Positions 19,758-39,187 of a DNA stretch of 64,000 bases are shown here, in pieces. The stretch covers positions 306,772-370,771 of the forward strand of contig NZ_JAFKCS010000001.1 in the NCBI RefSeq assembly GCF_017255015.1, read 5' to 3'. The position numbers were made by a program, and so were the translations under genes. The notes beneath the pieces were generated by a model. It had not been told where the DNA came from, searched no databases, and was given only the letters and a program-made list of their open reading frames with translations. Within the stretch, counting starts at the first letter, position 1. The number at the start of each line of letters is the position of its first letter. This stretch comes from Bowmanella yangjiangensis (GTDB lineage Bacteria > Pseudomonadota > Gammaproteobacteria > Enterobacterales > Alteromonadaceae).

Positions 19758-20126
19758 TTATTTAAGCGGGGCCAGAACTAGTCGTCCGTAGCTGATAAAT
19801 ACACACAGCACCGCCACGGTTAGCCAATAATACAGGGGACCGGCGTTAGCTTCACCCGATTGCCAATGCAGCAGGCTGAACAGCAACATGCTTGCTGCAA
19901 TCACCAGCGCAGCTAGCGGGGCAAGTATAGCGCCGGGTTTATATAACAGCGGCACAATCAAGCCCAGGCAGCATAACAGTTCAATTACACCCAAGCCGAG
20001 CCAGGCTGCATTGGGAATGGCGGCCAAAGACTGCATGCTCTGAGCGGGGTTACTGAATTTCCACAGCGCACCTATGGCGGTGTGTATGGCTATCAATATC
20101 TGCAAGGTCCACAACAGAATATTCAT
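19758..20126 (-). CDS. DoxX-like small membrane protein
   Basis: 122 residues with four hydrophobic segments (ILLWTLQILIAIHTAIGALW; AWLGLGVIELLCCLGLIVPLLY; ILAPLAALVIAASMLLFSLL; YYWLTVAVLCVFISYG), matching the DoxX/DoxD-like superfamily of inner-membrane proteins. The first codons overlap the stop of the ECF sigma gene by four bases (ATGA type), so it is cotranscribed and translationally coupled. SnoaL-fused ECF sigma factors usually sit beside one target gene encoding a small redox or membrane protein, so this gene is the best candidate target. Enzymatic role unknown. Confidence 0.83.
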   Translation of the reverse strand: MNILLWTLQILIAIHTAIGALWKFSNPAQSMQSLAAIPNAAWLGLGVIELLCCLGLIVPLLYKPGAILAPLAALVIAASMLLFSLLHWQSGEANAGPLYYWLTVAVLCVFISYGRLVLAPLK

Positions 20127-21040
20127 GCTTGTATTCCTTGCGCCGCCTCTGCCGACTCTTGTTCAATCGGGCGGATATCCATACTTTCTAAACGCGCTCT
20201 GTCCATTATCACATCGATGTGAGTGATCTTGCCGTCTGTTATACCAAAGCAGAACGCCACCATGGTTGTGCCATTTGCCCCCCAGGTCGCCCCTGGCATG
20301 CCGTCCACCAGGCTAAGCATGGCGCCCAGAGCTCGGCCTTTAAGGGTATTAGCCACCTTAGTTGCCCCCGACATTTCAGCTTCAAATTGCGGTGCGCCTT
20401 TAGCCTGATTGGCCTTAGTGATTTTCAGAGCGGTGGCATCCGCACGCAGAATGGCATCCGGGTGAAGTAAGCTCAGCAGCGCCTGAAAGTCACCTTGTCT
20501 GGATGCTTGCAGAAAAGCCGCAACCAGATGCTGTTGGTGTGTATCATCCTGTCTGCTTGAGCTGGCGCCCTGAACCTGGCGGCGGGCGCGGCTGGCCAGT
20601 TGTCTGGTGGCGGCCTCAGAGCGTTCGATAATAGGCGCAATGTCGGCAAAGCTGAGATCAAACAGGTCATGCAGGACAAAAGCGATACGCTCCGGCGGTG
20701 ACAGGGTGTCCAGTATCAGCAGCAGGGCCGGTCCCAATGAGTAAGCGATTAACAGCTCGGTTTCCGGCCCCTGCTGGTTGTCGATGTGCAAGTCCAGCAC
20801 CACATCGTCTGCTGCTGGTTTACGCGCCCGTAACTGGTCCAGGCAGATGCGTGATACAACAGTTATTAACCATCCTTGCAAATTGTTGATCTGTTCGGCA
20901 TCACTGCGATTAAGTCTGAGCCAGGCTTCCTGCACGGCGTCTTCGGCTTCATTGCTTGAGCCCAGCATCCGATAGGCCAGCGATTGTAGGTGTTGGCGAT
21001 GGCTGTTGAAATGCTCTGCCAACCCGTCCTGTTTGTTCAT
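20123..21040 (-). CDS. ECF sigma factor with fused C-terminal SnoaL-like domain (SigJ/ECF41 type)
   Basis: The ATG at 21040 is used rather than one 23 codons earlier, giving 305 residues with the conserved start. Region 2 is visible as LAYRMLGSSNEAEDAVQEAWLRL, and region 4 as LSPPERIAFVLHDLFDLSFADIAPIIERSEAATRQLASRA. Residues ~180-300 form a SnoaL/NTF2-like domain (LVDGMPGATWGANG, then FGITDGKITHIDVIMDRARL), which in ECF41-type factors contacts the core sigma and tunes activity instead of an anti-sigma factor. I did not see the WLPEP linker motif of canonical ECF41 members, so a related group is possible. Directly upstream is a TGTCACA-N16-CGTC promoter, pointing to autoregulation. Confidence 0.9.
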   Translation of the reverse strand: MNKQDGLAEHFNSHRQHLQSLAYRMLGSSNEAEDAVQEAWLRLNRSDAEQINNLQGWLITVVSRICLDQLRARKPAADDVVLDLHIDNQQGPETELLIAYSLGPALLLILDTLSPPERIAFVLHDLFDLSFADIAPIIERSEAATRQLASRARRQVQGASSSRQDDTHQQHLVAAFLQASRQGDFQALLSLLHPDAILRADATALKITKANQAKGAPQFEAEMSGATKVANTLKGRALGAMLSLVDGMPGATWGANGTTMVAFCFGITDGKITHIDVIMDRARLESMDIRPIEQESAEAAQGIQA

Positions 21041-21097
21041 GGTATGTCCCGTATTGTTTAAGTGTTGATTCACAGCCCCAAAGGACTCAATCAAGAT

Positions 21098-21124
21098 GAC
21101 GAAAAACACTATATCAATGTGACA
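21098..21124 (-). promoter_or_regulatory. ECF41-type promoter of the SnoaL-fused sigma gene
   Basis: On the minus strand TGTCACA (21124-21118) and CGTC (21101-21098) are separated by exactly 16 bases. This is the target promoter reported for ECF41 sigma factors. It lies 57 bases before the sigma start codon, so the factor probably drives its own operon with the DoxX-like gene. Confidence 0.75.
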
Positions 21125-23221: not shown

Positions 23222-24220
23222 TTAGTGCAATAAACGTTTTAACGCCCTGCTAATCTGCTTTTTACTGGCTTTATCGGTGGTTAACCCTTGTGCACGCTGA
23301 TAAATCTGCCGGGCGAGAGCCGGCTGGGCCATGGCTTCTGCCAGTTCGCCCTGTAGCAGAAGACTTTGCACATAGTCTTCGTCATAAACCTTATCTTCAT
23401 TGAGTAAGCGGCTGATGGCTGCCATGCCCTGAGCCTTCTCGCCATAGCCCTGCAGACTTAGATGAGCACTCCACTGACAGGCATCCCGCCATTTGGGCAG
23501 CAAAGTCACATCGTACGGCGTGAGCATGCAGCTTTGGTAAAAACTCTGCTGTGCTGGCGCTTTTTGATCATAGGTAAGCTGCAACTGGGCGGCACGCTCC
23601 ATCAAACGCAGGTTATCAGCAAATTCAGTTTTGACTTGTATGATAAGTTGCTCGCCGGTACGGCTGTCCTGGGTGTTTTGGGCAAAATCCATGGCGGCAA
23701 CCAGATGATATTGCTGATCAAGGGAGGCCAGTTGCACAACCAATTGCCGGGCGGCTTCTTCATCCCATCCCCATAAATTCTCCCAGGCCAAGGCTTTGGC
23801 CGCTTCCAGCATGTATTTTGGCGTATTAGGCGCCAGTTCATTGGCGCGCAGCATATGCTGCACATGTAAGTCGATATAGCCCAGCTTATTGATAAAACTG
23901 CTGTTTTCCTTTACTTCATACCAGAGCCTGCCCGCCTGGTAGTGGGCTTCGGCACTGTCTGAGTAGCGTTTGGTCAGTGCATGTAGCTGCTCCTGCTGAT
24001 TGTCGTCCTGGCGGGCAACGGCCAGCGCCGCCTGCCATATATCCTGCTGCAGTGGGGACAGACCCGGTGTTTTCAGCAGGTGTGCCAGTTTCTGGTAATC
24101 GCGCTGGTAATAGGCCGTTTTAACCCCGCTGAGTAGGTCTGTGTCGACCACTTCTGCCATGGTCACCTGGCTGCCAAGACAGCTTAGGGCGAACAGGATA
24201 GATATCTGATTTTTACTCAT
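23222..24220 (-). CDS. Exported TPR-like helical repeat protein
   Basis: 332 residues with a signal peptide (~1-22, ending TMA). The mature part is all helical with TPR-like spacing (AEAHYQAGRLWYEVKE; HMLRANELAPNTPKYMLEAAKALAWEN). Its central block aligns by eye with the protein encoded at 31339 (for example ANELAPNTPKYML versus AGQLAPDNPRYMT, and the following SLDQQYHLVAAMDFAQN versus GLDKKWGYIARINLAQN), so the two are distant paralogues. It overlaps the ABC-permease/peptidase gene by four bases and is the last gene of that operon. Probably a periplasmic partner of the exporter; this is inference from context. Confidence 0.75.
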   Translation of the reverse strand: MSKNQISILFALSCLGSQVTMAEVVDTDLLSGVKTAYYQRDYQKLAHLLKTPGLSPLQQDIWQAALAVARQDDNQQEQLHALTKRYSDSAEAHYQAGRLWYEVKENSSFINKLGYIDLHVQHMLRANELAPNTPKYMLEAAKALAWENLWGWDEEAARQLVVQLASLDQQYHLVAAMDFAQNTQDSRTGEQLIIQVKTEFADNLRLMERAAQLQLTYDQKAPAQQSFYQSCMLTPYDVTLLPKWRDACQWSAHLSLQGYGEKAQGMAAISRLLNEDKVYDEDYVQSLLLQGELAEAMAQPALARQIYQRAQGLTTDKASKKQISRALKRLLH

Positions 24221-27200
24221 TGCACAGTGTCTCCAACCATAGGGTTAAGTTCATCCAGCCATTGGGTGACAGCCACCGGCTGGGTAAATAGCCGCTCAAT
24301 CAGCTCGCGCTGCCCTGGCGCTTCACGCAGTAAGGCCTGAACAAAGTCCAGCGAACTGGCGGGCCCTGCCGGGTAGCCGTGATCGCGGCCTAAGGTTTTT
24401 AGTGCTTTGAGGATTGGCGCATCGCCCACTTCCTGGCGTAGCCTGGCAAAGACCAGGGTAGCGCGGGAATATTGGTCATAGTTCTGCTCGGCGCTGATAA
24501 GGCTGACCGGCGCTTCCCGCCGGCGGCTGTCGGCGGCCAGAAAACGTTCCCGCTCGTAGGCAACCAGGGCCTGCATGGCCGCCTGACTTTGATGTTGTTC
24601 CAGCATCACCAGCTCCACATATTTAGCCAACGACTCCACCATAAAGGCGCTGTCTTGTTCGATACCGTTGCCTAACCAGTGACCAAACCATTGATGAGCG
24701 GTTTCATGCACCGTTCGGCGGTAAGCCTGGCTGAAATCTTGCGAGTCGGTCTGCAGGGCGCGAAATCCTACCCGGCTGCCAATCAGCAGTAACTGTGGCA
24801 GGGCATAGCCGGTCGGCCCCATATCTGGCTTTTCCACTAAAGTCAGTGTGCCGCCGTTATAAGGGGCAATATGCTCAGATAAAAAGGCAACTGTGTCGGT
24901 CATGGCATCCAGCGTCAGTGGAACATTGGTTTGATGCTGGGGTAAATGGGCTACCTGCAGTAAGGTGTCGCCAATTTGACGGCTGGAAAGCATTAACGGC
25001 GCCGCGATAAATCCCTGCAGATTGCGCACTGGCCTCAGGGTTTTAAACAACCGGTATTGCCTGCCATCCTGCTGCCAGCTTTTGACCAGCTCGCCCTGGG
25101 TAAAACTTTGATAGCCCAGTGGTGTGGAGAGGCGGGTTTCCATCTGGCTCCATTGATAGCTGTCGAACTGCTTGTCTCTGCCGCTAAGCCTGGCTTCGAT
25201 ACTTTGCTTTTGTGGTGTCGGCAAGCCCTGCTGACGGCGCAGATCTTGGTTACTGATCTGCCGAATGCTTTGGTAGCCGATGGAGGGAAAGTAGGGAATA
25301 GCACGTAAGTAATTGAAGTCCTTAGTCAGGATTTTATTGGGTGATATGCTGCTGTAGCCGTTTTGCGCCAACTTCAGAGTAAAGTGCAAGGTTAAACTTT
25401 GCCCAGGTTGCAGGGCTTCACTGAGTTTATAGATACGCTGTCCCTGTCTGGCATCATAGTCCACAGTTAGTTCGACTTCGGCTGGATGCGTCGAGTTCTC
25501 CCCTTGCATCAAGCTGATATGGCTAAGGGGGCTTCGCCAGTCTTCCCCAACCAGGATTTGATTAATGGCCTGCTGGTGGTGATTTTTCAGCGTATATTGT
25601 CCGTTAATCTGCACCTCACGCTCGTGTGGATAAAAGTCCACTTGGGTGGTGACCTTGCTTATTTGTGGCATGGGCAGACTGGCAAAGTGCTGATACTGGC
25701 GTTCATAGTCAGCCAGCAAGGCCGTGCGCTGTTTGGGTGTCAGGTAGTGGCCGTTTAGCTTAAGACCGCTTTGGATAGTTAAAAACTGTTTGGCCAGCAA
25801 GGCAAGTAACAGGACCGCACTGAGTAAAACGGCTTTGTTGAACTGAAAACGCGGCTTGTTGTGTCCAGCCACCTGACTTGCCAGCAGCAAAAGCACGCCA
25901 CTGACCAGTAACCAAAAGCAGGTAAATGCCCAAAATCCTTGAATGGTTGCCTGGTAACCCAAGTAGGCATCGGCAGGTTGTAAGGGGGTGGCAAAGGCTC
26001 TGAATAGCGGATGATGCAGCCCCATTAACGCCGCCAGGGGGGTAAAGTGCAGCAGCACCAGCAGTAAAGACAGCAGCAACGCCAGCCAGCGTTTGCTTGT
26101 GCCAGCGTGAATGGCGAGGAAAACCAACCCTGCAGCGGCGAGTTGTAAACCGGCGTAACAGATCATCTGCAGATAGTCAGTCCACTGCACGGGGCTCTGC
26201 TTTAGCCACTGACTGAGTGCGGCGGCCAGCACGGTCAGTAGTAAAAACACCAGTAACAGGGCGCACAAGCTAATCACCCTGGCGGCGAGCCTGATGCTTG
26301 GCACAATAGGCAGCGCATCGATAATGCCGTCAATGCGGCATTGTCTGTCATGCTGATGCAAGGCGTCGCTGAAATACAGCATCAGCGCACTACCAAATAG
26401 GGGGAGCATGTCCCACATTACCCGGTTAATGGCATCCAAGCTCAGCCCCTGTAAAACGGCTCGTTGCTCGGCATAATCCAAAGAGGGGTAAACCTCACCG
26501 ACGACAATCAAGCACCAGATCAGGCCCGCCAACCAAATTACAGGCTTGCTGAGGACCTGCTGGATACCCAGCCGGGTGAGGCGTAACAGTTGTGTGGCTG
26601 GCTTCGGCGCGACAACAAAGAAATGCAGCAAAGACTTTGGTGCAGGGCTTGATTTCGCTGAGCCAGAAACATGTTTTGTCGGCACCAAAGCCGGTTTGTT
26701 GTTGCTCGGTGGCCGGATGGCCAGGCGAATGGCCAGTCCTGCTATTGCGCTGGCAAGCATCAGGATGAGCAGCCGATTGGTGATAATGATAAATTCATTC
26801 GGTTGTCTTTCCAGCAGCGCGGTCATGCCAAACCAATCAAAGTAGGACATGGCGCTGTGCAGCCAAGGGATGGGCAGCGTTGACGCGGCCATTAAGGGGG
26901 AAGCGCTGGCAACCGCTAGTATGCTATACAGCACGAACCAAAGCAGCGCCGCAAGGTAGACCAGTACCGTCGAGGTACTTAAGTTGCGCAGCAACCAGAA
27001 TACCGCCACAAACAATAAGATGGCAGGCATTCCCACGACTAACTGCCAGGTTTGCAAGCTAATTGCGATATCGAGCTGACGGCCGATATCTGGAATGGTT
27101 TCGGCCTGGGTATTGAGGCCAATCTGTACACCCAGGGCGGCCAATGCACCCAATATCAGTAGCTGCAGTATCAGGCCACTGACCTGAACCGCCTGTTGTT

Positions 27201-27468
27201 TAACCTGCGACAGGGACGTGGCGGCTGCAAGTTCTGTCATATTGTGGTTCATGGCCCGATAAAGGGAGAATACGGCAAGTAGCCCGCTGGCCCAGGGCAG
27301 CGCCATCATACTCAGTACGCCGATAAGATTGAGCTGATGGGCGTTGCTAAATAAGTCTGCTTGCTGGCTATAGCCTCGCCCAACAAAGATACCAAGTAAC
27401 GGAGCCAGGAGCATTAAGATACGCAGCAGCGGCTGGCGCAGGCAAAGGCTGAGTTCGTTCACCAGCAT
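24217..27468 (-). CDS. ABC-2 permease fused to M1-type (gluzincin) aminopeptidase domain
   Basis: 1083 residues. The first ~540 residues hold two sets of about six membrane helices of the ABC-2 permease type, separated by a soluble linker near 255-290. Residues ~560-1075 resemble M1 aminopeptidases: a beta-rich N-terminal part (LTVDYDARQGQRIYKLSEALQPGQSL) and a catalytic part with HETAHQWFGH at ~921-930 and a possible third ligand Glu at ~945. The spacing from HExxH to that Glu is 19 rather than the usual 18, and I see no clear GxMEN exopeptidase motif, so activity may be altered. It overlaps the ATPase gene by one base. Probably exports or processes a peptide at the membrane. Confidence 0.9.
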   Translation of the reverse strand: MLVNELSLCLRQPLLRILMLLAPLLGIFVGRGYSQQADLFSNAHQLNLIGVLSMMALPWASGLLAVFSLYRAMNHNMTELAAATSLSQVKQQAVQVSGLILQLLILGALAALGVQIGLNTQAETIPDIGRQLDIAISLQTWQLVVGMPAILLFVAVFWLLRNLSTSTVLVYLAALLWFVLYSILAVASASPLMAASTLPIPWLHSAMSYFDWFGMTALLERQPNEFIIITNRLLILMLASAIAGLAIRLAIRPPSNNKPALVPTKHVSGSAKSSPAPKSLLHFFVVAPKPATQLLRLTRLGIQQVLSKPVIWLAGLIWCLIVVGEVYPSLDYAEQRAVLQGLSLDAINRVMWDMLPLFGSALMLYFSDALHQHDRQCRIDGIIDALPIVPSIRLAARVISLCALLLVFLLLTVLAAALSQWLKQSPVQWTDYLQMICYAGLQLAAAGLVFLAIHAGTSKRWLALLLSLLLVLLHFTPLAALMGLHHPLFRAFATPLQPADAYLGYQATIQGFWAFTCFWLLVSGVLLLLASQVAGHNKPRFQFNKAVLLSAVLLLALLAKQFLTIQSGLKLNGHYLTPKQRTALLADYERQYQHFASLPMPQISKVTTQVDFYPHEREVQINGQYTLKNHHQQAINQILVGEDWRSPLSHISLMQGENSTHPAEVELTVDYDARQGQRIYKLSEALQPGQSLTLHFTLKLAQNGYSSISPNKILTKDFNYLRAIPYFPSIGYQSIRQISNQDLRRQQGLPTPQKQSIEARLSGRDKQFDSYQWSQMETRLSTPLGYQSFTQGELVKSWQQDGRQYRLFKTLRPVRNLQGFIAAPLMLSSRQIGDTLLQVAHLPQHQTNVPLTLDAMTDTVAFLSEHIAPYNGGTLTLVEKPDMGPTGYALPQLLLIGSRVGFRALQTDSQDFSQAYRRTVHETAHQWFGHWLGNGIEQDSAFMVESLAKYVELVMLEQHQSQAAMQALVAYERERFLAADSRRREAPVSLISAEQNYDQYSRATLVFARLRQEVGDAPILKALKTLGRDHGYPAGPASSLDFVQALLREAPGQRELIERLFTQPVAVTQWLDELNPMVGDTVQ

Positions 27469-28343
27469 TATGCAGCCTCCAAAGGCAGACCATGCAGATG
27501 CATGAAATAACAGTCCTGCAGACTTGCTGTCACTGGCTCAAACTGCTCTGCCGGACAATGATGACACAGCACTCTGGCCACCGGATTACCTAAATGCAGG
27601 CTTTGGCTGAGCAAATGACTGTTGCCCGGAAGATGGCCGGGCTCATGCAGGGGACCTTGCCAGATTTTGCCCTGCAAGGGGTGAAACAGGTTGTGGGTCT
27701 CACCGCAGGCGACGATAGTGCCGTTAAGTAAAATGGCCGTTTTGCTGCATAAGTGTTCAATGTCTTCCACTATATGGGTGGAGAGGAGTACCAGCCGGGA
27801 CTGGGCAATGTCATGCAATAGTTGGTGCAGACGCAGGCGCTCAGCAGGATCCAGACCTGAGGTGGGTTCATCAAAAATCAGCACTTGTGGGTCACCTAAC
27901 AGGGCCTGGGCAACGCCAAAACGTTGCAGCATGCCACCGGAAAAATGACTGGGTTGTCTGTGCGCGTGTTCGGTTAGATTGGTCAGCGCCAGAACCAACT
28001 CAATTTGCTGGCGGCGGGTTTGCTTGTTTGAGAGTCCTTTCAATACTGCCAGATGTTCCAGCAGGGCTAAGCAGGAAATATGCGGATACACACCAAAATG
28101 CTGAGGCAGATAGCCCAGCTTGCTGCGTAAAAGCTGCGGGGACTGCAATATGTTCTGGCCATTAAGTTCGATGCAACCGCTATCCGGTGTCTGTAAGGTC
28201 GCAATAGTGCGCATCAGGCTGGATTTTCCGGCCCCATTGGGGCCAAGCAGGCCCATCATGCCAGTGCCCAATTGGAGGGAAACGTCGTCCAGGGCTTTGG
28301 TACCGTCAGGATAAGTTTTATTAATGTGCGCAAGTGTCAGCAT
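27468..28343 (-). CDS. ABC transporter ATP-binding protein (partner of the permease/M1 fusion)
   Basis: 291 residues with Walker A GPNGAGKSS, signature FSGGMLQRF, Walker B VLIFDEPTSGLDP and the switch histidine in LLSTHIVED. The signature has M in place of the more usual Q, a variation common in DrrA/NatA-like ATPases. The last ~80 residues form a short extra domain. It is first in the operon with the permease-M1 fusion and the TPR protein and is divergent from the LytS-like kinase. It powers the associated permease; the substrate is unknown. Confidence 0.92.
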   Translation of the reverse strand: MLTLAHINKTYPDGTKALDDVSLQLGTGMMGLLGPNGAGKSSLMRTIATLQTPDSGCIELNGQNILQSPQLLRSKLGYLPQHFGVYPHISCLALLEHLAVLKGLSNKQTRRQQIELVLALTNLTEHAHRQPSHFSGGMLQRFGVAQALLGDPQVLIFDEPTSGLDPAERLRLHQLLHDIAQSRLVLLSTHIVEDIEHLCSKTAILLNGTIVACGETHNLFHPLQGKIWQGPLHEPGHLPGNSHLLSQSLHLGNPVARVLCHHCPAEQFEPVTASLQDCYFMHLHGLPLEAA

Positions 28344-28406
28344 AGGTTTGGCTCCCAGGTTTTTACAGGCAGGTTAAGGAGCGCGGGGCTGGCTATAAAG
28401 GTATTG

Positions 28407-28489
28407 ATGACAAACCAGCGGATTTTTATGACATCCTTGATTTATCGGGGTAAATTGCCGTTTATCAGTAAAATTGGCCGGTTTGTCAT
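28407..28489. promoter_or_regulatory. Inverted repeat in the ABC / LytS divergent region
   Basis: ATGACAAACC (28407-28416) and GGTTTGTCAT (28480-28489) are perfect 10-bp inverted repeats, 63 bases apart, in the 214-bp gap between the ABC operon and the two-component operon. They flank the likely promoter zone and are candidate sites for the LytTR regulator encoded alongside; the binding assignment is inference. Confidence 0.4.
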
Positions 28490-28557
28490 GATTTAACTGA
28501 CAGGCTTCGCTGCTTTGCCAACTATAGGTACTTTGTTACCGCCGAATAGTTCTTATT

Positions 28558-30075
28558 ATGTCGAACGCTTTTCTTTCTCTGCTTCGCTCAGCTTTTTGGC
28601 CGCCAGTTTTGCCAGTGGTGGTGGCCGTTTTAATCGAAACACTTATCCGTATACATGGCTATGCAGCGGAAAATTACGACGACTATATTCAGCTGCGCGG
28701 CGGGGCAGGATTGTATCTGCAAACCTTACTGCAACTGATCTTGGAAAGCGCACCGCTGATAGCAGCCCAGTGCTGGGTGCTGCTACGCCCCGGGCCGCGA
28801 GGTATATTAGTCTGGGTCATGGGGTATGTGCTGTATCCGGCTATCAGTCTGATGCTGCAGACCAGCCAACCCGCATTCTCGACGCTGTTGTTTAGTGTAC
28901 AGTTTTGGATTCTGGCAACGGGGTTGTCACTGCTGTATTGGGGGCAGCGGGCCTACCAACTTGCTCAAGGTGTGCAAAGTGGGGCGTCCTGGTGGCGTTA
29001 TATATTGTCGTTGGATGCCGCTTTAGTGCTATGCCTGGTGAGCTGGGTGATATTGATGAGCGGCATGTTCGTTTATACCCCTGACCCTATGCATAATCAG
29101 CCTCTGGAGCCCAGGCTAGATCCAGTCCAGATGCTCAGGCAATGGCCGCTGACCTTATATTATGCCTGGCAGTTTTCGGTGCTGGCCGCCGTGGTCTTTG
29201 CCTACTATTGGGTGAATCGCTATATCTTGATCCGCAGGGTATTAGCGACCCAGGGCGTGTATCTTTTCTTACTGTGTAGCGCCGCCTGGCTGCTATTGTC
29301 TTACCCTCTGTTCGGCACAATGGTGTTGCAAATGCCGCTCAATATTGCTGAACAGAGCTTACTGCCTTCGGAAAATCATCTCCCTTTTGACAGCATGAAC
29401 TTGCTGGTCGCCGTTCTCATCTGGGCCTTTAGCACGCCGCTGATTCTGGCTTTTGAACGGCAACAAAATGCAAGGCAACTGGCCGAGCTTAGCCAGGAAC
29501 AAACCCAGGCGGAGCTGAAAATGTTGCAACAGCAGGTTAATCCACACTTTCTGTTCAATACACTTAACAGCTTATATGCCCTGTGTCTGACGCAATCGGC
29601 TCAGGCCGCCCCTATGCTTTTAAAATTGGCAGACTTACTGCGTTATGTCGTATACCAGGGGCAGAATACCAAGGTGGCGCTGGCGGATGAGGTGGCTTAT
29701 TTGCAGAACTATCTTGAGTTACAGGAGTTAAGGGTTGGCAAGCGCTGTCTTGTCAAAACTGATATCCAGCTAGCGGATGGGGATTGGCCAATTGCCCCAT
29801 TGCTGCTGATTATGCTGGTAGAAAATGCCTTTAAACATAGTGTCGAGGTCAGCCAGGATAGTTGCGATATTGAACTCACCCTGAAAATGGACGGCGACCG
29901 GCTGGTTTTCGTTTGTAGTAATAGTTTGCCGAAGGATTACCAGCCCAATCAGAACGGTGGAATTGGCCTTATTAACCTAAAGCGGCGCCTACAACTGGGA
30001 TACCCAGGGGAATATAGTTTGCATAGCGCAGCGCAGGGTCAACGATGGGGCGCCAGGTTGGAGATTAGGTTATGA
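28558..30075 (+). CDS. LytS-type membrane sensor histidine kinase
   Basis: 505 residues. Residues ~1-300 contain about eight membrane helices, with no known extracellular sensor domain. The kinase part is of the His_kinase (PF06580) class: phospho-acceptor region QQVNPHFLFNTLNSLYAL near 320-337, N box MLVENAFKHS, and G box GGIGLINLKRRL. It overlaps the response-regulator gene by four bases. Divergent orientation from the ABC/M1 operon suggests it senses the exported compound or envelope stress and controls that exporter. No good ribosome site precedes the ATG at 28558, so the exact start is uncertain. Confidence 0.9.
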   Translation: MSNAFLSLLRSAFWPPVLPVVVAVLIETLIRIHGYAAENYDDYIQLRGGAGLYLQTLLQLILESAPLIAAQCWVLLRPGPRGILVWVMGYVLYPAISLMLQTSQPAFSTLLFSVQFWILATGLSLLYWGQRAYQLAQGVQSGASWWRYILSLDAALVLCLVSWVILMSGMFVYTPDPMHNQPLEPRLDPVQMLRQWPLTLYYAWQFSVLAAVVFAYYWVNRYILIRRVLATQGVYLFLLCSAAWLLLSYPLFGTMVLQMPLNIAEQSLLPSENHLPFDSMNLLVAVLIWAFSTPLILAFERQQNARQLAELSQEQTQAELKMLQQQVNPHFLFNTLNSLYALCLTQSAQAAPMLLKLADLLRYVVYQGQNTKVALADEVAYLQNYLELQELRVGKRCLVKTDIQLADGDWPIAPLLLIMLVENAFKHSVEVSQDSCDIELTLKMDGDRLVFVCSNSLPKDYQPNQNGGIGLINLKRRLQLGYPGEYSLHSAAQGQRWGARLEIRL

Positions 30076-30761
30076 AAACCCTGCTAATTGACGATGAACC
30101 CTTAGCCCATGAAGTATTGTTGCATCATAGTCGCGAGCATGCCGATGTTGAGATTGTTGGCCAATGCTTTAATGCCGCCGAGGCATTGGCGTTTTTGGCC
30201 AACCAGCAAGTCGACCTGATTTTTCTGGATATCAATATGCCGGTGCTATCGGGGTTGGAGATGCTGAAAGTGCTCGCCAATCGCCCGCAGGTGGTGCTCT
30301 GTACCGCATATCAGGAACATGCTTTGGCAGGCTTTGAGTTGGATGTGACTGACTATCTGCTCAAACCTGTCAGTGCCGAACGTTTTGCCTTGGCACTAGA
30401 TAAAGTGCGCCGCCGGGCGAATGAGGAAGGACAGAGTACTCAAACCACTGTGGCCAGCCATATAGTGATTAGGGTGGACAGGGAAGATCGCAAGATTGAA
30501 CTGGAAAAAGTGCAATGCTTCGAAGCCTATGGCAACTACGTAAAAGTATGGCTGGATGATAACTGCTGGTTGACTGCTGCGACCCTCAAGTATTTTGTGG
30601 AATCTTTACCTGAGGATAAGTTTGTACAGGTGCATAAATCTGTTTTGGTGAATAAAGCTATGGTGGTGGCCAAAGACAATGAGGGCCTGACTTTGCAAAG
30701 TGGTAAACGAGTAAAAATTGGCAAGGCCTTCAGGCAAAACTGTCTGGCAATGCTGACCTGA
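30072..30761 (+). CDS. LytTR-family response regulator
   Basis: 229 residues. The receiver domain spans ~1-115, with the acidic pocket in IDDEPLAHE and phospho-acceptor Asp in LIFLDINMPVLSG, followed by the switch Thr and Tyr region CTAYQEHA and the lysine in YLLKPVS. Residues ~130-228 are a LytTR DNA-binding domain (FEAYGNYVKVWLDD, KFVQVHKSVLVNK). LytTR proteins bind imperfect direct repeats upstream of their targets. It is coupled with the LytS-like kinase and likely controls the divergent ABC operon and the two genes that follow it. Confidence 0.93.
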   Translation: MKTLLIDDEPLAHEVLLHHSREHADVEIVGQCFNAAEALAFLANQQVDLIFLDINMPVLSGLEMLKVLANRPQVVLCTAYQEHALAGFELDVTDYLLKPVSAERFALALDKVRRRANEEGQSTQTTVASHIVIRVDREDRKIELEKVQCFEAYGNYVKVWLDDNCWLTAATLKYFVESLPEDKFVQVHKSVLVNKAMVVAKDNEGLTLQSGKRVKIGKAFRQNCLAMLT

Positions 30762-30797
30762 AGATGGTTTGGGATATTTTGTTTTGGAGATTGGAAA

Positions 30798-31262
30798 ATG
30801 CGTCATTTTATTGGTTGTGTTTGTTTATTGAGTACATTTATGGCGGTTGCCATGGATAAACAGCCATTAGCGGAACAAGGGCCGGTTGCGCCGGTCAATG
30901 CCTTATTTGATGCCATGCGGGCACACGAAGCTGACAATATCAGAGCGCAATTTAGTCAGGGCGCGCAGTTACAGCGGGTAAAAACGGATGGCCAAGTGGT
31001 GTTGTCTGATATTGATAAGTTCGCTGACAGTATCGCCGCCCATAAGGCGTATTTGGATGAGCAGTTATTATCGGTGACGGTTCAGCAGTCGGGCAATCTT
31101 GCCAGCGTATGGACGCCCTTTGCCTTTTATGTGGATAACCAACTAAGTCATTGTGGAGTCAATCATTTTGTGGTGGTAAATACGGCGGGAGGATGGCGAA
31201 TTCAGCACCTGATTGATGTAACCCATGACGGAGATTGTCAGGCCTTTATTGCAGAGCATTGA
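30798..31262 (+). CDS. Secreted SnoaL/NTF2-like protein in the LytTR operon
   Basis: 154 residues with a signal peptide (~1-18). The mature part has the NTF2/SnoaL pattern (VNALFDAMRAHEADNIRAQFSQGAQL at the start, NHFVVVNTAGGWRIQHLIDVTH at the end), typical of DUF4440-like proteins. It lies 36 bases after the response-regulator stop and 76 bases before the TPR gene, so it is likely part of the same transcript. GGAGATTGGAAA precedes the ATG. Ligand unknown. Two other secreted proteins of this fold occur at 1-2 kb in this window. Confidence 0.72.
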   Translation: MRHFIGCVCLLSTFMAVAMDKQPLAEQGPVAPVNALFDAMRAHEADNIRAQFSQGAQLQRVKTDGQVVLSDIDKFADSIAAHKAYLDEQLLSVTVQQSGNLASVWTPFAFYVDNQLSHCGVNHFVVVNTAGGWRIQHLIDVTHDGDCQAFIAEH

Positions 31263-31338
31263 TATTTAAAGGCGACATGATGCCTGGTGACTTCAGACCA
31301 AACAACATTCATTGAAAATGAACCATCGGAGTAGATTG

Positions 31339-32373
31339 ATGCGCATAAGGACGCGATGTGTTTCGTCGTTATGGCTGTTATTGGTTGCCTCATATTGCAA
31401 TCTGGCAACTACCGAGACATCACTAAGTCTTACAGACAAAATTTCCATGGCCACTGAGGCGTTAGCGCAAGGGGATAGCAGCTTAGCCGGTCAACTTATT
31501 CAAACTGAGACAGCCGAGCCAAACTATGCCTTGTTGCAACTGGAAATCCTCTATTGGTTGGAACAACGCGAATCTGACCAAGCGATAGACAAGCTCCGCG
31601 CATTTGAGCAGTTGTATCCGTTACGGGCGGATACCTTTGCGTTTTCCTCAGAGGTGTGGCGCTCCATAGGTCATCAGGTCAACATTTTTGCCAAATCGGG
31701 TTACTACAAAAAAGCGGTGGCAGCCAAAATAAAGGCTGGGCAACTGGCCCCGGATAATCCGCGCTACATGACTTTGGCAGCCTCTGCACTGGGGCAGGCA
31801 GACAACTACGGTGGCGACATGGCAGCACAAAAGCCACTGACCGAGCGGATAGTCGGGCTGGATAAAAAATGGGGTTACATTGCGCGTATTAATTTGGCGC
31901 AAAATAATGATGAATATACGCAGGGCAGAGTCTTGGCTGCACAAGCGGCTGCAGAGTTTGGTCAGGACTTTGATATATTGGAGAGAGTCGGTCAATTTCA
32001 TTGGACTCTGGGCGAATACAACGAGGCGCAGTACCATTTTCTGCAAGCTTGTAAAAATCGTCCCAATGATGAGTGGCATCTGCAAATCAAATGGCAGAAT
32101 GCCTGTTATTTGGTCGGCGAATTTGCAAAAGAGCAACAAATTGGGCTTGAAAATGCTGTAGAAGCTTTGACCATCTTGTTGAGTGTGTATACTTTGCCAA
32201 CGGAGAGTAACTTCGCGAGCGCCGATTTACTTTTGACCCTTGCCAGTGCGGAACAGGCATCCCCGGCAATAGACATGTTGTCCCGTATTCTGAATGAGTC
32301 TGCAGACAAAAAACTCAGGAGAAAGGCTGAGAAAGTTCTGCAACGCTTAAAAAAGCAAACTCAAGCCAGTTAG
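31339..32373 (+). CDS. TPR-like helical repeat protein, paralogue of the one at 23222
   Basis: Earlier in-frame starts exist (TTG 31312, ATG 31318), but the ATG at 31339 has GGAG eight bases upstream and begins a signal-like segment (LLLVASYCNLATT), giving 344 residues. The mature part is all helical, with TPR-type spacing and a basic C-terminus (RRKAEKVLQRLKKQ). The central part aligns by eye with the protein at 23222. It closes the kinase/regulator/SnoaL operon. Having two related TPR proteins at both edges of the same module suggests that each works with the ABC-M1 exporter or its substrate; this is inference. Confidence 0.72.
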   Translation: MRIRTRCVSSLWLLLVASYCNLATTETSLSLTDKISMATEALAQGDSSLAGQLIQTETAEPNYALLQLEILYWLEQRESDQAIDKLRAFEQLYPLRADTFAFSSEVWRSIGHQVNIFAKSGYYKKAVAAKIKAGQLAPDNPRYMTLAASALGQADNYGGDMAAQKPLTERIVGLDKKWGYIARINLAQNNDEYTQGRVLAAQAAAEFGQDFDILERVGQFHWTLGEYNEAQYHFLQACKNRPNDEWHLQIKWQNACYLVGEFAKEQQIGLENAVEALTILLSVYTLPTESNFASADLLLTLASAEQASPAIDMLSRILNESADKKLRRKAEKVLQRLKKQTQAS

Positions 32374-34044: not shown

Positions 34045-34959
34045 ATGTCAGCCTTTATCCAGGTTAACAACCTGCGTAAGTCCTTTAAAAAATTGGAAGC
34101 CGTGCAAGGTATCAGTTTTTCTGTGCCTAAGGGTATATGCTTCGGCCTGCTAGGGCCGAATGGCGCGGGCAAAACCACCACCATTGAAATGATGGAGGGT
34201 ATTGTAGATTTTGATGGTGGCGAGATTCTATACGATGGCGAGCCGCTTAATCGTGCCATGAATCAGCGCATCGGCATTCAGTTTCAGCACACCGCTTTGC
34301 AGGATTACCTCAGTGGCCGTGAGTGTCTGAGTATGTTTGCCAGCTTTTACAGTCATGCCTTGGATGTTCAGCATTTAATCGAGCTCTGTCAGCTGGAAGA
34401 TTTTGCTGAGCAGGACCATCGCAAACTATCCGGTGGTCAGAAGCAACGTTTATTGCTGGCTATCGCGCTGGTCAACGATCCGCAGATTCTGTTCTTGGAT
34501 GAACCCACGACGGGTTTAGATCCGCATGCCAGACGTAACTTTTGGGATCTCATTAACCGTATCAAGGCCCTGGGTAAAACCATTGTACTGACCACGCACT
34601 ATATGGATGAAGCCGAGTACTTGTGTGATGACATTGCGATTATGGACAAAGGCCGGATTATTGCCCGCGGTGCGCCACGCGATTTGCTTGCCGAACATTT
34701 TAAAGGTGTGCTGATTCGTCTGCGCCAGCAGCATTTACCTGAAGCGGTTATGGCAACCTGTCATCCTCGTCAGGATGGGGCCTACTGGTTTATCAACACC
34801 GATAAGGTGGAACAAACACTGAAATTACTGGTTGAGGAGCAAGTGGAGCTGGACGGTTTGCATGTTAAATCTGCCAACCTAGATGATTTGTTCTTAAAAC
34901 TCACGGGTCATGGCTTGCAAGGCGCACCAGAGCAATTGGAGATGGCCGATGTTAAGTAG
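34045..34959 (+). CDS. ABC-2 transporter ATP-binding protein
   Basis: 304 residues with Walker A GPNGAGKTT, signature LSGGQKQRL, Walker B ILFLDEPTTGLDP and the H-loop in LTTHYMDEAE. The ~80-residue extension after the ATPase core (RLRQQHLPEAVMATCHP onward) is typical of DrrA-type drug and lipid exporters. It overlaps the permease gene by 11 bases and forms a two-gene ABC-2 exporter with it. The substrate is not predictable. Confidence 0.92.
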   Translation: MSAFIQVNNLRKSFKKLEAVQGISFSVPKGICFGLLGPNGAGKTTTIEMMEGIVDFDGGEILYDGEPLNRAMNQRIGIQFQHTALQDYLSGRECLSMFASFYSHALDVQHLIELCQLEDFAEQDHRKLSGGQKQRLLLAIALVNDPQILFLDEPTTGLDPHARRNFWDLINRIKALGKTIVLTTHYMDEAEYLCDDIAIMDKGRIIARGAPRDLLAEHFKGVLIRLRQQHLPEAVMATCHPRQDGAYWFINTDKVEQTLKLLVEEQVELDGLHVKSANLDDLFLKLTGHGLQGAPEQLEMADVK

Positions 34960-35950
34960 GTTTTGGGCGGTGTTTAAGTCCCGTAATCTGGAGTTTTTCC
35001 GCGACCGCTCGTCGCTGGGCTGGAACCTGGCCTTTCCTTTGTTGCTGGTGGTGGGCTTTGCCTTTATTTTCAGCGGTGATGGCCGCGCAGCATATAAAAT
35101 TGGTCTGGTGGGAGAGGGAGGCGACAACAGTTTTTTTCACCTGAAACATGTGGAATATGTGGCGTATGACGATCTGGCACTGGCGCAGCAAAAACTGCAG
35201 CAGCATCAGCTGGACTTACTGGTGGAACCGGCCAGCCAGACCTATTGGGTTAATAGCAGTTCGCCGCAGGGCTATTTTGCCAGTGAGCTTTTGACCGGCA
35301 AGTTACCTGATTATCAACGTCAGGAACTGGATGGCCGGGAAATCCGTTACCTGGATTGGGTACTACCGGGTATTCTGGGCATGAATATGATGTTTTCCAG
35401 CCTGTTTGGCGTCGGTTATGTGATTGTTCGTTATCGCAAGAGCTCGGTACTTAAACGCCTTAAGGCTACGCCGTTGCGGGCAGTGGAATTCCTGGCAGCA
35501 CAGATCTTGTCCCGGTTGTTTATTGTGCTGAGTATCACCAGCTTTGTGTTTATTGCTTGCAACAGCCTGTTTGATTTTTACATGCTGGGTAGCTATCTGG
35601 ATTTATTCTTGGTCACTGCATTGGGGGCCGCATCTATGATTGCGCTGGGTTTACTGATGGCCAGCCGCAGTCAGAGTGAAGAGCTGACCGGAGGGCTGCT
35701 GAATCTGATTAGCTGGCCGATGATGCTGCTGTCAGGGGTGTGGTTTTCCCTGGAAGGTGCCCCGCAAGCCATTGTGCAGGTTGCACAGCTATTACCTCTT
35801 ACCCATTTGCTTGAGGCTGCCAGAGCCATTATGAACGACGGTGCCGGGCTGGCAGAGATTCAATACCACTTATGGACATTATTGTTGATGACCTTGGTGT
35901 TTATGGGATTAGGCGCCTTGTTGTTCCGCTGGCAGGGCGAAGGCCGCTAG
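34949..35950 (+). CDS. ABC-2 type permease
   Basis: The frame is open from 34910, but the ATG at 34949, inside the end of the ATPase gene, starts the first conserved segment (MLSRFWAVFKSRNLEFFRDRSSLGWN), giving 333 residues. Six membrane helices are visible: one N-terminal, then a large extracytoplasmic part (~50-150), then five C-terminal ones. RKSSVLKRLKATPLRAVEFLAAQIL matches the ABC-2 membrane domain (DrrB/NodJ family). It works with the preceding ATPase. A 126-bp gap to the next operon follows. Confidence 0.9.
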   Translation: MLSRFWAVFKSRNLEFFRDRSSLGWNLAFPLLLVVGFAFIFSGDGRAAYKIGLVGEGGDNSFFHLKHVEYVAYDDLALAQQKLQQHQLDLLVEPASQTYWVNSSSPQGYFASELLTGKLPDYQRQELDGREIRYLDWVLPGILGMNMMFSSLFGVGYVIVRYRKSSVLKRLKATPLRAVEFLAAQILSRLFIVLSITSFVFIACNSLFDFYMLGSYLDLFLVTALGAASMIALGLLMASRSQSEELTGGLLNLISWPMMLLSGVWFSLEGAPQAIVQVAQLLPLTHLLEAARAIMNDGAGLAEIQYHLWTLLLMTLVFMGLGALLFRWQGEGR

Positions 35951-36076
35951 GCTGATTTTATTTGTGGCTGGATAAATACGCTCTAGTTGTTGTTTCAGAA
36001 CAAGTTTTTACAGGATAGCTTTATAAATTTTAAGCAAAAGGCCGTATGATGCAGGGACTATCTGTGGAGGATTGTT

Positions 36077-36814
36077 GTGAGCGACAGCGCTTTGCAAAAC
36101 CTGGATTTATCCCTGCCTGCTTTTGCTATGCAAGGGCTGACCAAAGTATTTGGTAGCGGCCCCAGTCGGGTAGAAGCACTGCGTGGTGTTGATCTGACCA
36201 TTCCTGCCGCCGAGCTGGTGGTCCTACTTGGCCCTTCCGGTAGTGGCAAATCTACCTTATTGAATATTCTGGGGGGCCTGGATAGTGCAACGTCCGGTTC
36301 CCTGTCTTATTTCAATCTGGACCTGGCCGCCATGGATGAAAGACAGCTTACCCAGTACCGCCGTCAGCACATTGGTTTTGTCTTTCAGTTTTACAACTTG
36401 ATGCCCAGTCTCACGGCACTAGAGAATGTGCAATTAGTGACCGAGATTGCCGAGAGTCCGATGGATGCAGCAGAGGCGCTGGCCATGGTGGGGCTGGAAA
36501 ATCGTCAGCATCACTTCCCGGCGCAGTTGTCTGGCGGTGAGCAACAAAGGGTCGCTATCGCCCGCGCTATTGCTAAAAGGCCCAGGGTGTTGTTTTGCGA
36601 TGAACCTACCGGCGCCCTGGACAGTAAAACCGGCCGTACCGTATTGAATGTGTTGCAGGAGGTGAACCGTGAGCTTGGAACCACGATTCTGATTGTGACG
36701 CATGCCGCCAGTACAGCGGCAATGGCGCATCGGGTGATACATTTTGCCGACGGGCGGATCAGCAAAGAGGTCGAGAACGATCAGGTGCTGTCCGCTGCCG
36801 ACATTGACTGGTAA
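36077..36814 (+). CDS. MacB/LolD-type ABC ATPase
   Basis: 245 residues with Walker [10 protein letters not shown], signature LSGGEQQRV, Walker [14 protein letters not shown] and H-loop IVTHAA. The segment [18 protein letters not shown] is the hallmark of MacB/LolD-type ATPases. The start is GTG, with GGAGG six bases upstream. It is followed directly by the FtsX-type permease and an HlyD-type adaptor, a three-part cell-envelope exporter. No outer-membrane TolC-type gene is present here. Confidence 0.92.
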
Positions 36815-36820
36815 TTGTTG

Positions 36821-39187
36821 ATGCTGGCATCGCTTGATCAAAAACTACTACGAGATTTATGGCGTGTCAGAGGTCAGGGACTGGCGATTGCGGTAGTCAT
36901 GGCATTTGGCGTGATGCTGATGGTGATGATGGATGGCCTGATCAACTCCCTCAGTGAAACCAAGCGTAGTTATTACGAACGTTATCGGCTGGCTCAGGTG
37001 TTCGCACCGGTCAAACGTGCCCCCAAGCATCTGCTGCAACAAATTTCTGATTGGCCGGATGTCACCGCAGTGGAAGGCCGAATAAACGGCGGCGCACTGA
37101 TTAACCTGCCGGATGAAACTATTCCTATCCGCGCCCAGGCCGTGTCGCTACCGGATTACCGAGCACCCAGACTCAATGATGTTTATCTGGCCGAAGGACG
37201 GCGACTGGACCCCACCCACAAAAATGAAATTTTGCTATTGCAAGGTTTTGCCAATGCCCGAGGGATTAAACCCGGTGACCATTTGACCGCAACACTGAAC
37301 GGCACCAGGCGTAGTTTCCATGTGGTGGGACTGGCGCAGGCCCCTGAGTTTCTCTATACCCCGGCGCCAGGGGAAATAGTCCCGGATGACAAACGTTTTG
37401 CGGTGTTCTGGATGAGTGAGGATGCACTGGCCGCAGCACTGGATATGGATGGAGCCTTTAATGAAGTTTTGCTGACATTGCCGCTGGGGGCCAACAGCGC
37501 GCATATCCTCCATCAACTTGACCAGTTGCTGATGTCCTATGGTGCGCTGGGCGCTTATACCCTGGATGATCATCTTTCTAACCGCTTTATCAGTGAAGAA
37601 ATACAGCAACTGGCAAATTCAAACCAGGTTGTTCCCCCCGTGTTTATGGGGGTGGCGGCGTTTTTACTTTATATAGTCATATCGCGCATGGTGCAGTCTG
37701 AGCGCGAGCAGATAGGCCTGCTTAAAGCCTTCGGTTACACCGGCTGGGAAATTAGCCTGCATTACTTGAAGTTTGTGCTGCTGATTGCCATTTTGGGCGC
37801 ACTATTGGGCTGCGTTTTAGGGGTGTTGGGGGGGCGCGGTTTAAGCGGGGTCTATCAGCTTTATTATAAATTTCCCTTTTTGCTGTTCAGGCTGGACCCG
37901 GCCACGGTTATAAGCTCTTTGCTGGTGTCGATCATGGTGGCTTGTACCGGCGCTGCGTGGGTAGTGCAGCGGGTGTTTGCTTTGACTCCGGCACAGGCTA
38001 TGCGCCCACCAACGCCCACGGATTTCAGCACCAGCCTGCGCTTTGGGCAAGGGTTGCTGGCCAAATTTGACCAGCCCACCCGTATGGTGCTGCGTACTCT
38101 TAATCGCCATCCGTTGAAAACCTTGATGTCGATAAGTGGCATCGCCTTGGGGATGGCCCTGTCGGCCGGTATGCTTAACGTGTTGAGTGCCTTTGACCGC
38201 ACCCTGGCATTTAGCTTTGAGCAAGTCGATCGCAGTGATCTCAATGTTAGTTTTGTTGAGCCGTTAGGCCCGGACAGTCTGTATTACCTGGCGCGTTTAC
38301 CCGGTGTACTGGCGGTGGAAGGTGTGCGCGATGTACCAGCGATTTTTCATTTTGGCCGCGAGCGTTATCGGGGCGCCGTTACTGCACTGACGCCAGCACC
38401 ACAATTGTTCCGGGCGCTGGATAAACATAGCCAGCCGATTGCATTGCCGCAGCAGGGCATAGTGTTATCCAAAGCCCTGGCGGGTCAGTTAAAGGTGCAA
38501 ACCGGGGATACGCTACTCGTGGATATTCGTCAGGGACGTCGGCCTAAATTACCAATACAAGTGGCGGCTATTGCTGAAACTATGACCGGCGCGCCTGCCT
38601 ATATGGACCTCAACGCCCTTAACCGCTTGATGTTTGAGCCCGGCCGGGTGAGTGGCGCCCATTTACGAATTGATATGCACTATGCGCAAGACTTATATGC
38701 CAAGCTCAAAGATATGCCGGCCATTGCCAGTGTAAACCTGAAAAATCAAAGCCGCCAGGCAATGGAAAAAATGATGGATGAAGGGGCTGGCGCAACCCGC
38801 TATGTGATGATGATTATTGCTGCCGTTATTACCTTTGGCATTGTGTATAACAGCGCCAGAATCGCCTTTGCCGAACGGGCTCGTGACCTGGCCAGTTTGC
38901 GGGTAATGGGGCTGACCAAAAGCGAAGCGGCCTTTGTACTGCTGGGCGAACTGGGCATTATTACGTTGCTGGCTATTCCATTGGGCTGTGCTTTTGGCTA
39001 TGGCTTATCCGCCTTGATCTCGGCAGGCTTCAGTAATGATTTGTATCAGGTGCCTGTGACTGTGGTGCCTACCGCTTATGGCAGTGCTGCCATTGCCGTA
39101 CTGCTGGCAGCGCTGGGATCCGGTTTTCTGATCAAGCGCGATTTGGACCGACTTGATTTGGTTGGGGCTTTAAAAACACGTGAATAA
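36821..39187 (+). CDS. FtsX/MacB-like ABC permease with two permease domains
   Basis: 788 residues. The ATG at 36821 is used; two TTG codons just upstream are also possible. It contains two FtsX-type permease units with a membrane helix near the N-terminus, then about three near 270-380, another near 430-450 and three more near 665-780, and two large extracytoplasmic parts. Repeated conserved pieces are EREQIGLLKAFGYTG and ARDLASLRVMGLTKSE. This double-unit type is used for lipoprotein or mechanotransmission export. It is 6 bases after the ATPase and 15 bases before the adaptor gene. Confidence 0.9.
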   Translation: MLASLDQKLLRDLWRVRGQGLAIAVVMAFGVMLMVMMDGLINSLSETKRSYYERYRLAQVFAPVKRAPKHLLQQISDWPDVTAVEGRINGGALINLPDETIPIRAQAVSLPDYRAPRLNDVYLAEGRRLDPTHKNEILLLQGFANARGIKPGDHLTATLNGTRRSFHVVGLAQAPEFLYTPAPGEIVPDDKRFAVFWMSEDALAAALDMDGAFNEVLLTLPLGANSAHILHQLDQLLMSYGALGAYTLDDHLSNRFISEEIQQLANSNQVVPPVFMGVAAFLLYIVISRMVQSEREQIGLLKAFGYTGWEISLHYLKFVLLIAILGALLGCVLGVLGGRGLSGVYQLYYKFPFLLFRLDPATVISSLLVSIMVACTGAAWVVQRVFALTPAQAMRPPTPTDFSTSLRFGQGLLAKFDQPTRMVLRTLNRHPLKTLMSISGIALGMALSAGMLNVLSAFDRTLAFSFEQVDRSDLNVSFVEPLGPDSLYYLARLPGVLAVEGVRDVPAIFHFGRERYRGAVTALTPAPQLFRALDKHSQPIALPQQGIVLSKALAGQLKVQTGDTLLVDIRQGRRPKLPIQVAAIAETMTGAPAYMDLNALNRLMFEPGRVSGAHLRIDMHYAQDLYAKLKDMPAIASVNLKNQSRQAMEKMMDEGAGATRYVMMIIAAVITFGIVYNSARIAFAERARDLASLRVMGLTKSEAAFVLLGELGIITLLAIPLGCAFGYGLSALISAGFSNDLYQVPVTVVPTAYGSAAIAVLLAALGSGFLIKRDLDRLDLVGALKTRE

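Follow-up and report, generated by a model that had tools for sequence, protein, structure and literature searches.

The window analysed here is a stretch of 64,000 nucleotides of Bowmanella yangjiangensis (contig NZ_JAFKCS010000001.1, positions 306,772 to 370,771), from a genome of 5.40 Mb in 922 contigs, and contains two divergent gene sets in which an ATP-binding cassette (ABC) ATPase and a permease fused to an M1-type peptidase domain (permease::M1) face a LytS-type histidine kinase and a LytTR response regulator. Seven intact open reading frames (ORFs) were confirmed, with the ATPase, the permease::M1 fusion and the tetratricopeptide repeat (TPR) protein TPR1 on the minus strand, and LytS, LytTR, a SnoaL-like protein and a second TPR protein, TPR2, on the plus strand (Table 1). 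The two sides are separated by a 214-bp spacer (28344-28557) and, judging by the spacing of the genes, each presumably forms one operon. The adjoining PF06580 kinase and receiver-LytTR regulator, both recognized by Pfam models, have the architecture of a two-component system. Four of these genes, arranged as LytTR-LytS / ATPase-permease::M1, constitute a conserved unit, and this four-gene core is widespread with no described function found.

Table 1. Features of the divergent locus, with positions counted in the window
Feature	Position	Strand	Remarks
TPR1, last gene of the ABC operon	23222..24220	-	probable periplasmic TPR superhelix; signal-peptide-like N-terminus
Permease::M1 fusion, 1083 amino acids	24217..27468	-	6+6 transmembrane module, 13th transmembrane helix ~545-571, M1 fold ~585-1078
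M1 zinc site HETAH-19-E, residues 921-945	24634..24708	-	coordinates checked by translation
ABC ATPase	27468..28343	-	PF00005 (ABC_tran) 99.6 bits; Walker A, signature and Walker B all intact
LytTR-type site B, two mismatches, facing the ATPase operon	28408..28436	-	-35-like TTTATA at 28394-28399
LytTR-type site A, GCCGTTTAT-12 bp-CCGGTTTGT, facing LytS	28457..28486	+	-35-like CTGACA at 28497-28502, 10 bp downstream
LytS-type histidine kinase	28558..30075	+	PF06580 92.8 bits; ~7 transmembrane helices (hydropathy), no evident extracytoplasmic domain
Response regulator with LytTR DNA-binding domain	30072..30761	+	PF00072 (Response_reg) and PF04397 (LytTR), both above cut-off
Secreted SnoaL-like protein, lineage-specific	30798..31262	+	PF13474 (SnoaL_3) 23.6 bits, cut-off 22
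TPR2, TPR1 homologue, last gene of the LytS operon	31312..32373	+	sub-cut-off Pfam TPR matches

Conservation was assessed over 131 distinct fusion loci (the window, L036-L134, L195-L208 and L244-L274), after removal of L017-L033 (short copies), of L062, of loci lacking a 600-amino-acid fusion and of loci with identical C-termini. Fusions were assigned to classes I, Ib, II and other by our own motif rules, and loci cut by contig ends were counted as being without the LytS+LytTR pair. With this counting, the pair adjoins 65 of the 131 fusion loci, namely 42/47 of class I, 8/9 of class Ib, 6/55 of class II and 9/20 of the others, and in all 65 it lies on the strand opposite to the fusion (lowest scores 190.8 bits for LytS and 210.0 bits for LytTR). 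On a tree of the fusions (126 rows of at least 900 amino acids) presence of the pair changes 8 times, as compared to 41.6 times in shuffles, with a minimum of 34 in 200. Named hosts with the pair include Rheinheimera, Pseudoalteromonas, Alteromonas, Paraglaciecola and Thalassotalea, and further Chitinophaga, Pedobacter, Larkinella, Hymenobacter and a Balneolaceae genome. Outside the 131-locus set, a plasmid of Hymenobacter swuensis (L276, NZ_CP007144.1 83-6833) carries kinase, LytTR, ATPase and fusion all in the same direction. An earlier sequence-only reading of this DNA had proposed a symmetric unit of seven genes and had set joint conservation of the two operons as a test of it. Divergent operons with a four-gene core kept together were indeed found, but the TPR genes are variable and the SnoaL gene was found only in the genus of the window, and seven genes were rejected as a conserved entity. 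Two class I loci, L044 and L268, seem to be decaying, since the fusion is split or shortened and no ATPase was found adjoining.

Inspection of the spacer 28344-28557 revealed two opposed LytTR-type sites, one facing each operon, which had not figured in the sequence-only reading. These sites are direct repeats of the half-site KTTYRTCA with a period of 21 bp. Half-site pairs at exactly this period, with at most one mismatch in all, were present in 24 of 36 spacers (41 divergent spacers minus five duplicates or near-duplicates), while any other period between 12 and 35 occurred at no more than 5 loci, and 200 rounds of shuffled spacers gave a mean of 0.9 and a maximum of 4 such 21-bp pairs. The pattern was drawn from the same spacers and subsequently tested by its period, by shuffling and on genes unused in drawing it, so that the spacer test is partly circular for the motif and not for the period. 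Site A is the sole match without mismatch in the genome of the window for both the short and a longer pattern. Among five genomes of the same genus, the longer pattern had one perfect match each in G000, G001 and G002, all in the LytS/ATPase spacer; no perfect match occurred in G003 or G004, both of which are without a class I locus. In G000 and G002 this spacer contains in addition an oppositely oriented site with two mismatches. Over 65 spacers with 34 LytS-facing sites (at most one mismatch), a TTGACA-like hexamer was observed at a single offset, 10 bp beyond the 9-bp repeat, with 3.76 of 6 positions matching the -35 element there as compared to 0.88-2.06 at other offsets. In the published account of LytTR sites, the direct repeats are mostly 12 bp apart, with a strong bias to a position 10 bp upstream of the -35 element (PMC6193735), and both the repeat spacing and the -35 offset at the fusion loci match this geometry.

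Such sites were also found in front of TPR genes away from the fusion. A same-strand site within 200 bp upstream, with at most two mismatches, precedes 4 of 5 TPR genes located away from the fusion as compared to 8 of 1184 unrelated genes; two of the four come from one genus and the cases are therefore not fully independent. The five are the seven flagged unlinked TPR genes (4/7) minus L045, which is the latter part of a gene split in two, and L209, a distant and weak homologue. With either strand and at most one mismatch, a site was present at 29 of 45 ATPase genes with adjoining LytS and at 2 of 47 whose fusion has no LytS beside it. These upstream counts leave out L046 and L062 and retain near-duplicate loci, and the upstream-gene test is circular for the LytS genes and not for the TPR genes. 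The sequence-only reading had regarded the locus as one regulated unit, which the sites facing both operons support, and LytTR very probably controls both operons, as far as can be judged from the repeats. A wider regulon beyond the TPR genes could not be read, as the short pattern occurs too often across the family.

The two TPR proteins at the outer edges, suspected from the sequence alone to be distant paralogues, are homologous (BLASTP, 27% identity over 312 amino acids, E 8e-24). Sub-cut-off Pfam TPR matches were obtained in TPR2 and none in TPR1; however, the AlphaFold2 model of TPR1, calculated from 3 sequences, is an all-helical solenoid (predicted local distance difference test, pLDDT, 87.7), whose best Foldseek matches are TPR superhelices. 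Clustering of neighbours over LytS-bearing loci identified the TPR gene as the one gene recurrent in clearly unrelated contexts (12 loci), and the other neighbour clusters (3-6 loci) appear to reflect either synteny among close relatives or gene families that are common anyway. In 196 family genomes, 22 TPR matches of at least 140 bits occurred in 17 genomes, with 17 matches in the fusion cluster and 5 elsewhere; all 17 TPR-bearing genomes have a class I or Ib fusion, and all five with an unlinked TPR gene have class I. At L038, a TPR gene closest to TPR2 lies directly downstream of the permease. The TPR gene is thus a true but variable accessory of the four-gene core. A SnoaL profile built in this analysis matched, among the scanned loci, only the window, L036 and L037 (three genomes of the same genus), with the SnoaL gene beyond a GGDEF gene at L037 and no TPR2 at L036. 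A distant TPR homologue elsewhere in the genome of the window (L209:7011-10621) is divergent to a NarL-type (HisKA_3 / GerE) pair and not to LytTR, so that other regulators may likewise be partners of this TPR family.

The fusion was modelled with AlphaFold2 from 52 homologues (pLDDT 89.1, predicted template-modelling score 0.88). The model contains 6+6 transmembrane (TM) helices, whose two halves are joined by a basic linker of low confidence, a 13th helix and the M1 fold, composed of an N-terminal beta domain and a thermolysin-like catalytic domain, which matched 1z1w in structure comparison (Z 28.5, 3.1 A, 401 residues). Pfam assigned Peptidase_M1 to residues 911-1048 (35.6 bits, cut-off 27.7). 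With 13 TM helices, placed by hydropathy, the count of lysine and arginine (22 inside versus 12 outside) fits a cytoplasmic N-terminus and a periplasmic M1 domain, and this predicted orientation hinges on TM8, which is weakly hydrophobic (mean 1.13). Lists of structural matches for the full model were filled by the M1 half, and the permease half was thus left without an assigned known fold. The fusion of the window gave no ABC2 Pfam match; in all six scanned fusions with an intact M1 site ABC2 matches were obtained at E up to 0.01, above cut-off in L095 and L198 only, for L095 on both halves (PF12679, PF12730) and for L198 with PF13346.

Building upon what the computations show, namely the gene unit with its conservation, the geometry of the repeats, their presence at TPR genes elsewhere, the M1 fold and the predicted topology, we propose a self-regulated, peptide-responsive ABC exporter of Gram-negative bacteria, which would resemble Bce modules although assembled from other parts; we consider the chances of this proposal to be evenly balanced. 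The ATPase would drive the putative tandem ABC-2-type permease, while the periplasmic M1-fold domain behind the 13th helix would capture a peptide and in most members probably cleave it. LytS would read the state of the transporter and phosphorylate LytTR, and LytTR, upon binding of the direct repeats facing both operons, would increase synthesis of the kinase, the regulator, the transporter and the TPR protein. In the periplasm, the TPR solenoid might associate with the M1 domain or with its substrate. We infer the direction of transport and the actual binding of LytTR, whereas a peptide substrate, sensing read from the transporter and the role of the TPR protein, if taken jointly, have about an equal prospect of being right or wrong.

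In Bce modules, a two-component system without a dedicated sensing domain is proposed to read the cycling of the transporter (PMC10314905). Shared with BceRS-BceAB are the adjacent two-component system, an ABC transporter with a large extracytoplasmic domain and the probable regulator sites adjoining the transporter operon. Many member kinases, namely those of class Ib and of some Bacteroidota-group loci, resemble the Bce kinases in having no sensor domain, while the kinase of the window has about 7 TM helices. Different from BceRS-BceAB are the C-terminal M1 domain behind TM13, the absence of an FtsX match, the PF06580 kinase with a LytTR regulator and the Gram-negative hosts. The system does not itself belong to the Bce modules, because its permease and kinase come from other families, but it may work like one. 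A second comparison is with the LytTR regulatory systems, for which autoregulation, ABC genes linked in some cases and a membrane inhibitor protein are described (PMC6193735). Direct repeats 12 bp apart and mostly 10 bp upstream of the -35 element, linked ABC genes and autoregulation, here a predicted one, are common to both; however, in place of the membrane inhibitor protein described there, a histidine kinase and a receiver domain are present here.

The kinases bear directly on how the signal could be received. By crude hydropathy, most kinases of the window class have 5-8 hydrophobic helices (3 in L056/L201) and no evident extracytoplasmic domain. BtsS/YpdA kinases, which are related to LytS, bind a small ligand via their multi-TM part. 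LytS could correspondingly be an autonomous sensor of a small ligand, with the exporter as a mere target and the M1 domain degrading periplasmic peptides. The helix number of the window-class kinases is in line with such a sensor, as is the fact that the regulator is matched best, among NCBIfam models, by BtsR, even if the 133.4 bits fall far short of the cut-off of 246. However, class Ib and several Bacteroidota-group kinases have only 259-275 amino acids with two TM helices and loops of 2-12 residues, and in L053 the kinase domain begins at residue 67. Such kinases retain the divergent gene order and the regulator type, and leave little room for a ligand module. Because of this lack of space, sensing read from the transporter is favoured, and we regard an autonomous ligand sensor as rather unlikely.

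The M1 domain shares with M1 metallopeptidases (PepN, ERAP, LTA4H and M1 of D. radiodurans) the fold (Z about 27-28.5), HExxH, the Glu and the Tyr, and differs from them by one residue more, 19 against 18, from HExxH to Glu, by absence of the GxMEN Glu and by fusion to a permease. H921, E922, H925, E945 and Y1000 are invariant in 52 aligned fusions, 51 of which came via a search with two peptide patterns (HExxH; E945), neither of which includes Tyr1000. The sequence-only reading had counted correctly the 19 residues from HETAH (921-925) to Glu945, but had taken this spacing as unusual. The usual M1 spacing is 18 residues, as in the PepN-like L001 of the same genome, which also has GAMEN. By regular expression, 19 residues were found in 99 of 108 fusions, with 20 in one and 8 unparsed; 19 is therefore a family trait, and the spacing was discarded as a sign of lost activity. 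In M1 aminopeptidases the Glu of GxMEN holds the free amino terminus of the substrate. Its absence, noticed already in the sequence-only reading, was confirmed, with GYALPQ at 887-892 in the window; class II fusions mostly have FAQ(S/A) and then a stretch that varies. Catalytic residues have been lost in four fusions. In L046 and L245 the motif reads YETAK and NETAH, respectively, and His replaces Tyr in both; L048 and L049 have no motif. A single clade (support 0.97) unites L245 with L048 and L049, all three of which keep LytS, LytTR and ATPase, and L046, which starts at a contig end and was excluded from the tree by the 900-amino-acid limit, has a motif resembling that of L245; several independent losses of catalysis are hence not claimed. 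Together with the absent GxMEN Glu, these four fusions lend support to the earlier suggestion of a repurposed M1 part with a non-standard role, and in most members the domain would probably cleave a peptide.

These observations could also be accommodated by export-coupled processing, in which a peptide made by the cell is pumped out and trimmed by the tethered M1 domain on emergence. The position of the peptidase domain, fixed at the exit side of a predicted exporter, would suit this role, and so would the invariance of the catalytic residues in the aligned rows. On the other hand, fusions with dead sites exist, and no recurrent precursor or maturation gene was found among the clustered neighbours of LytS-bearing loci (ORFs of at least 90 amino acids), where short precursors could be missed because smaller ORFs were not collected; such processing appears improbable. 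More improbable still is mechanotransmission without transport of the LolCDE/MacB kind, where ATP use would move the M1 and TPR parts so as to extract peptides or lipopeptides, either out of the membrane or off a target, since, for all that a large periplasmic domain tied to the permease, a probable periplasmic TPR partner and the apparent dispensability of catalysis in a few members would agree with it, the permease halves of relatives match ABC2-type models, mostly below cut-off, and Pfam found neither an FtsX (PF02687, up to E 1) nor a MacB model match in the protein of the window.

Several observations weigh against the proposed self-regulated, peptide-responsive exporter. The pair is not adjacent in 49 of 55 class II fusions, and the transporter can therefore work without it; five class I loci also have no pair (L038, L044, L046, L208 and L261, of which L046 starts at a contig end). 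A TPR gene lies within five genes of the fusion in 14 of 131 loci only. LytS of the window type, with about seven TM helices, could itself bind a ligand. As to the repeats, the ATPase-facing sites (14) have a weak -35 signal, with the maximum at the same 10-bp offset (2.79, next 2.5), site B of the window has two mismatches, and the unlinked TPR gene of L203 is without an upstream site. A perfect N13 site occurs in 160 of 196 family genomes and a reversed control pattern matches many too, so that the short pattern is not specific by itself in this family, and a scan with a LytTR consensus gave mostly unremarkable p values.

In the vicinity of the locus, two more ordinary-looking ABC systems are located at 34045-39187 of the window, one with an ATPase and an ABC-2 permease and the other with an ATPase and an FtsX/MacB-type permease. 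The minus-strand product of 20123-21109 is a sigma-70-like protein with a weak, sub-cut-off SnoaL-like match at its C-terminus, which presumably resembles extracytoplasmic function sigma factors with a fused SnoaL domain. A role as a defence system was rejected, as PADLOC matched the ATPase alone and through generic ATPase models. A search of viral contigs, sensitive to close relatives only, gave no match, and the plasmid collection contained 17 records with relatives, all below 60% identity.

In public records, a fusion located next to an ABC ATPase is called only 'M1 family aminopeptidase' (L276, and L275 at NZ_CP091443.1 2248-8706), and this plain annotation hides the transporter part. Literature searches on the fusion and on the whole system, with most subscription journals outside their coverage, found no paper describing its function. 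Fusions are spread over several phyla under aminopeptidase names. We hold it as a tentative view, and one that is somewhat doubtful, that the M1 fold, active or dead, constitutes with its TPR partner a peptide receptor, that a sensor-less LytS reads the movement of the transporter, and that the system is an equivalent of Bce modules widespread among Gram-negative bacteria. The proposal lends itself to direct tests through the repeats ahead of the operons and the dead-site variants that exist in nature. If it is true, peptide sensing via an ABC transporter would have arisen in Gram-negative bacteria from entirely different parts, and a peptidase fold would have been turned into a receptor domain.

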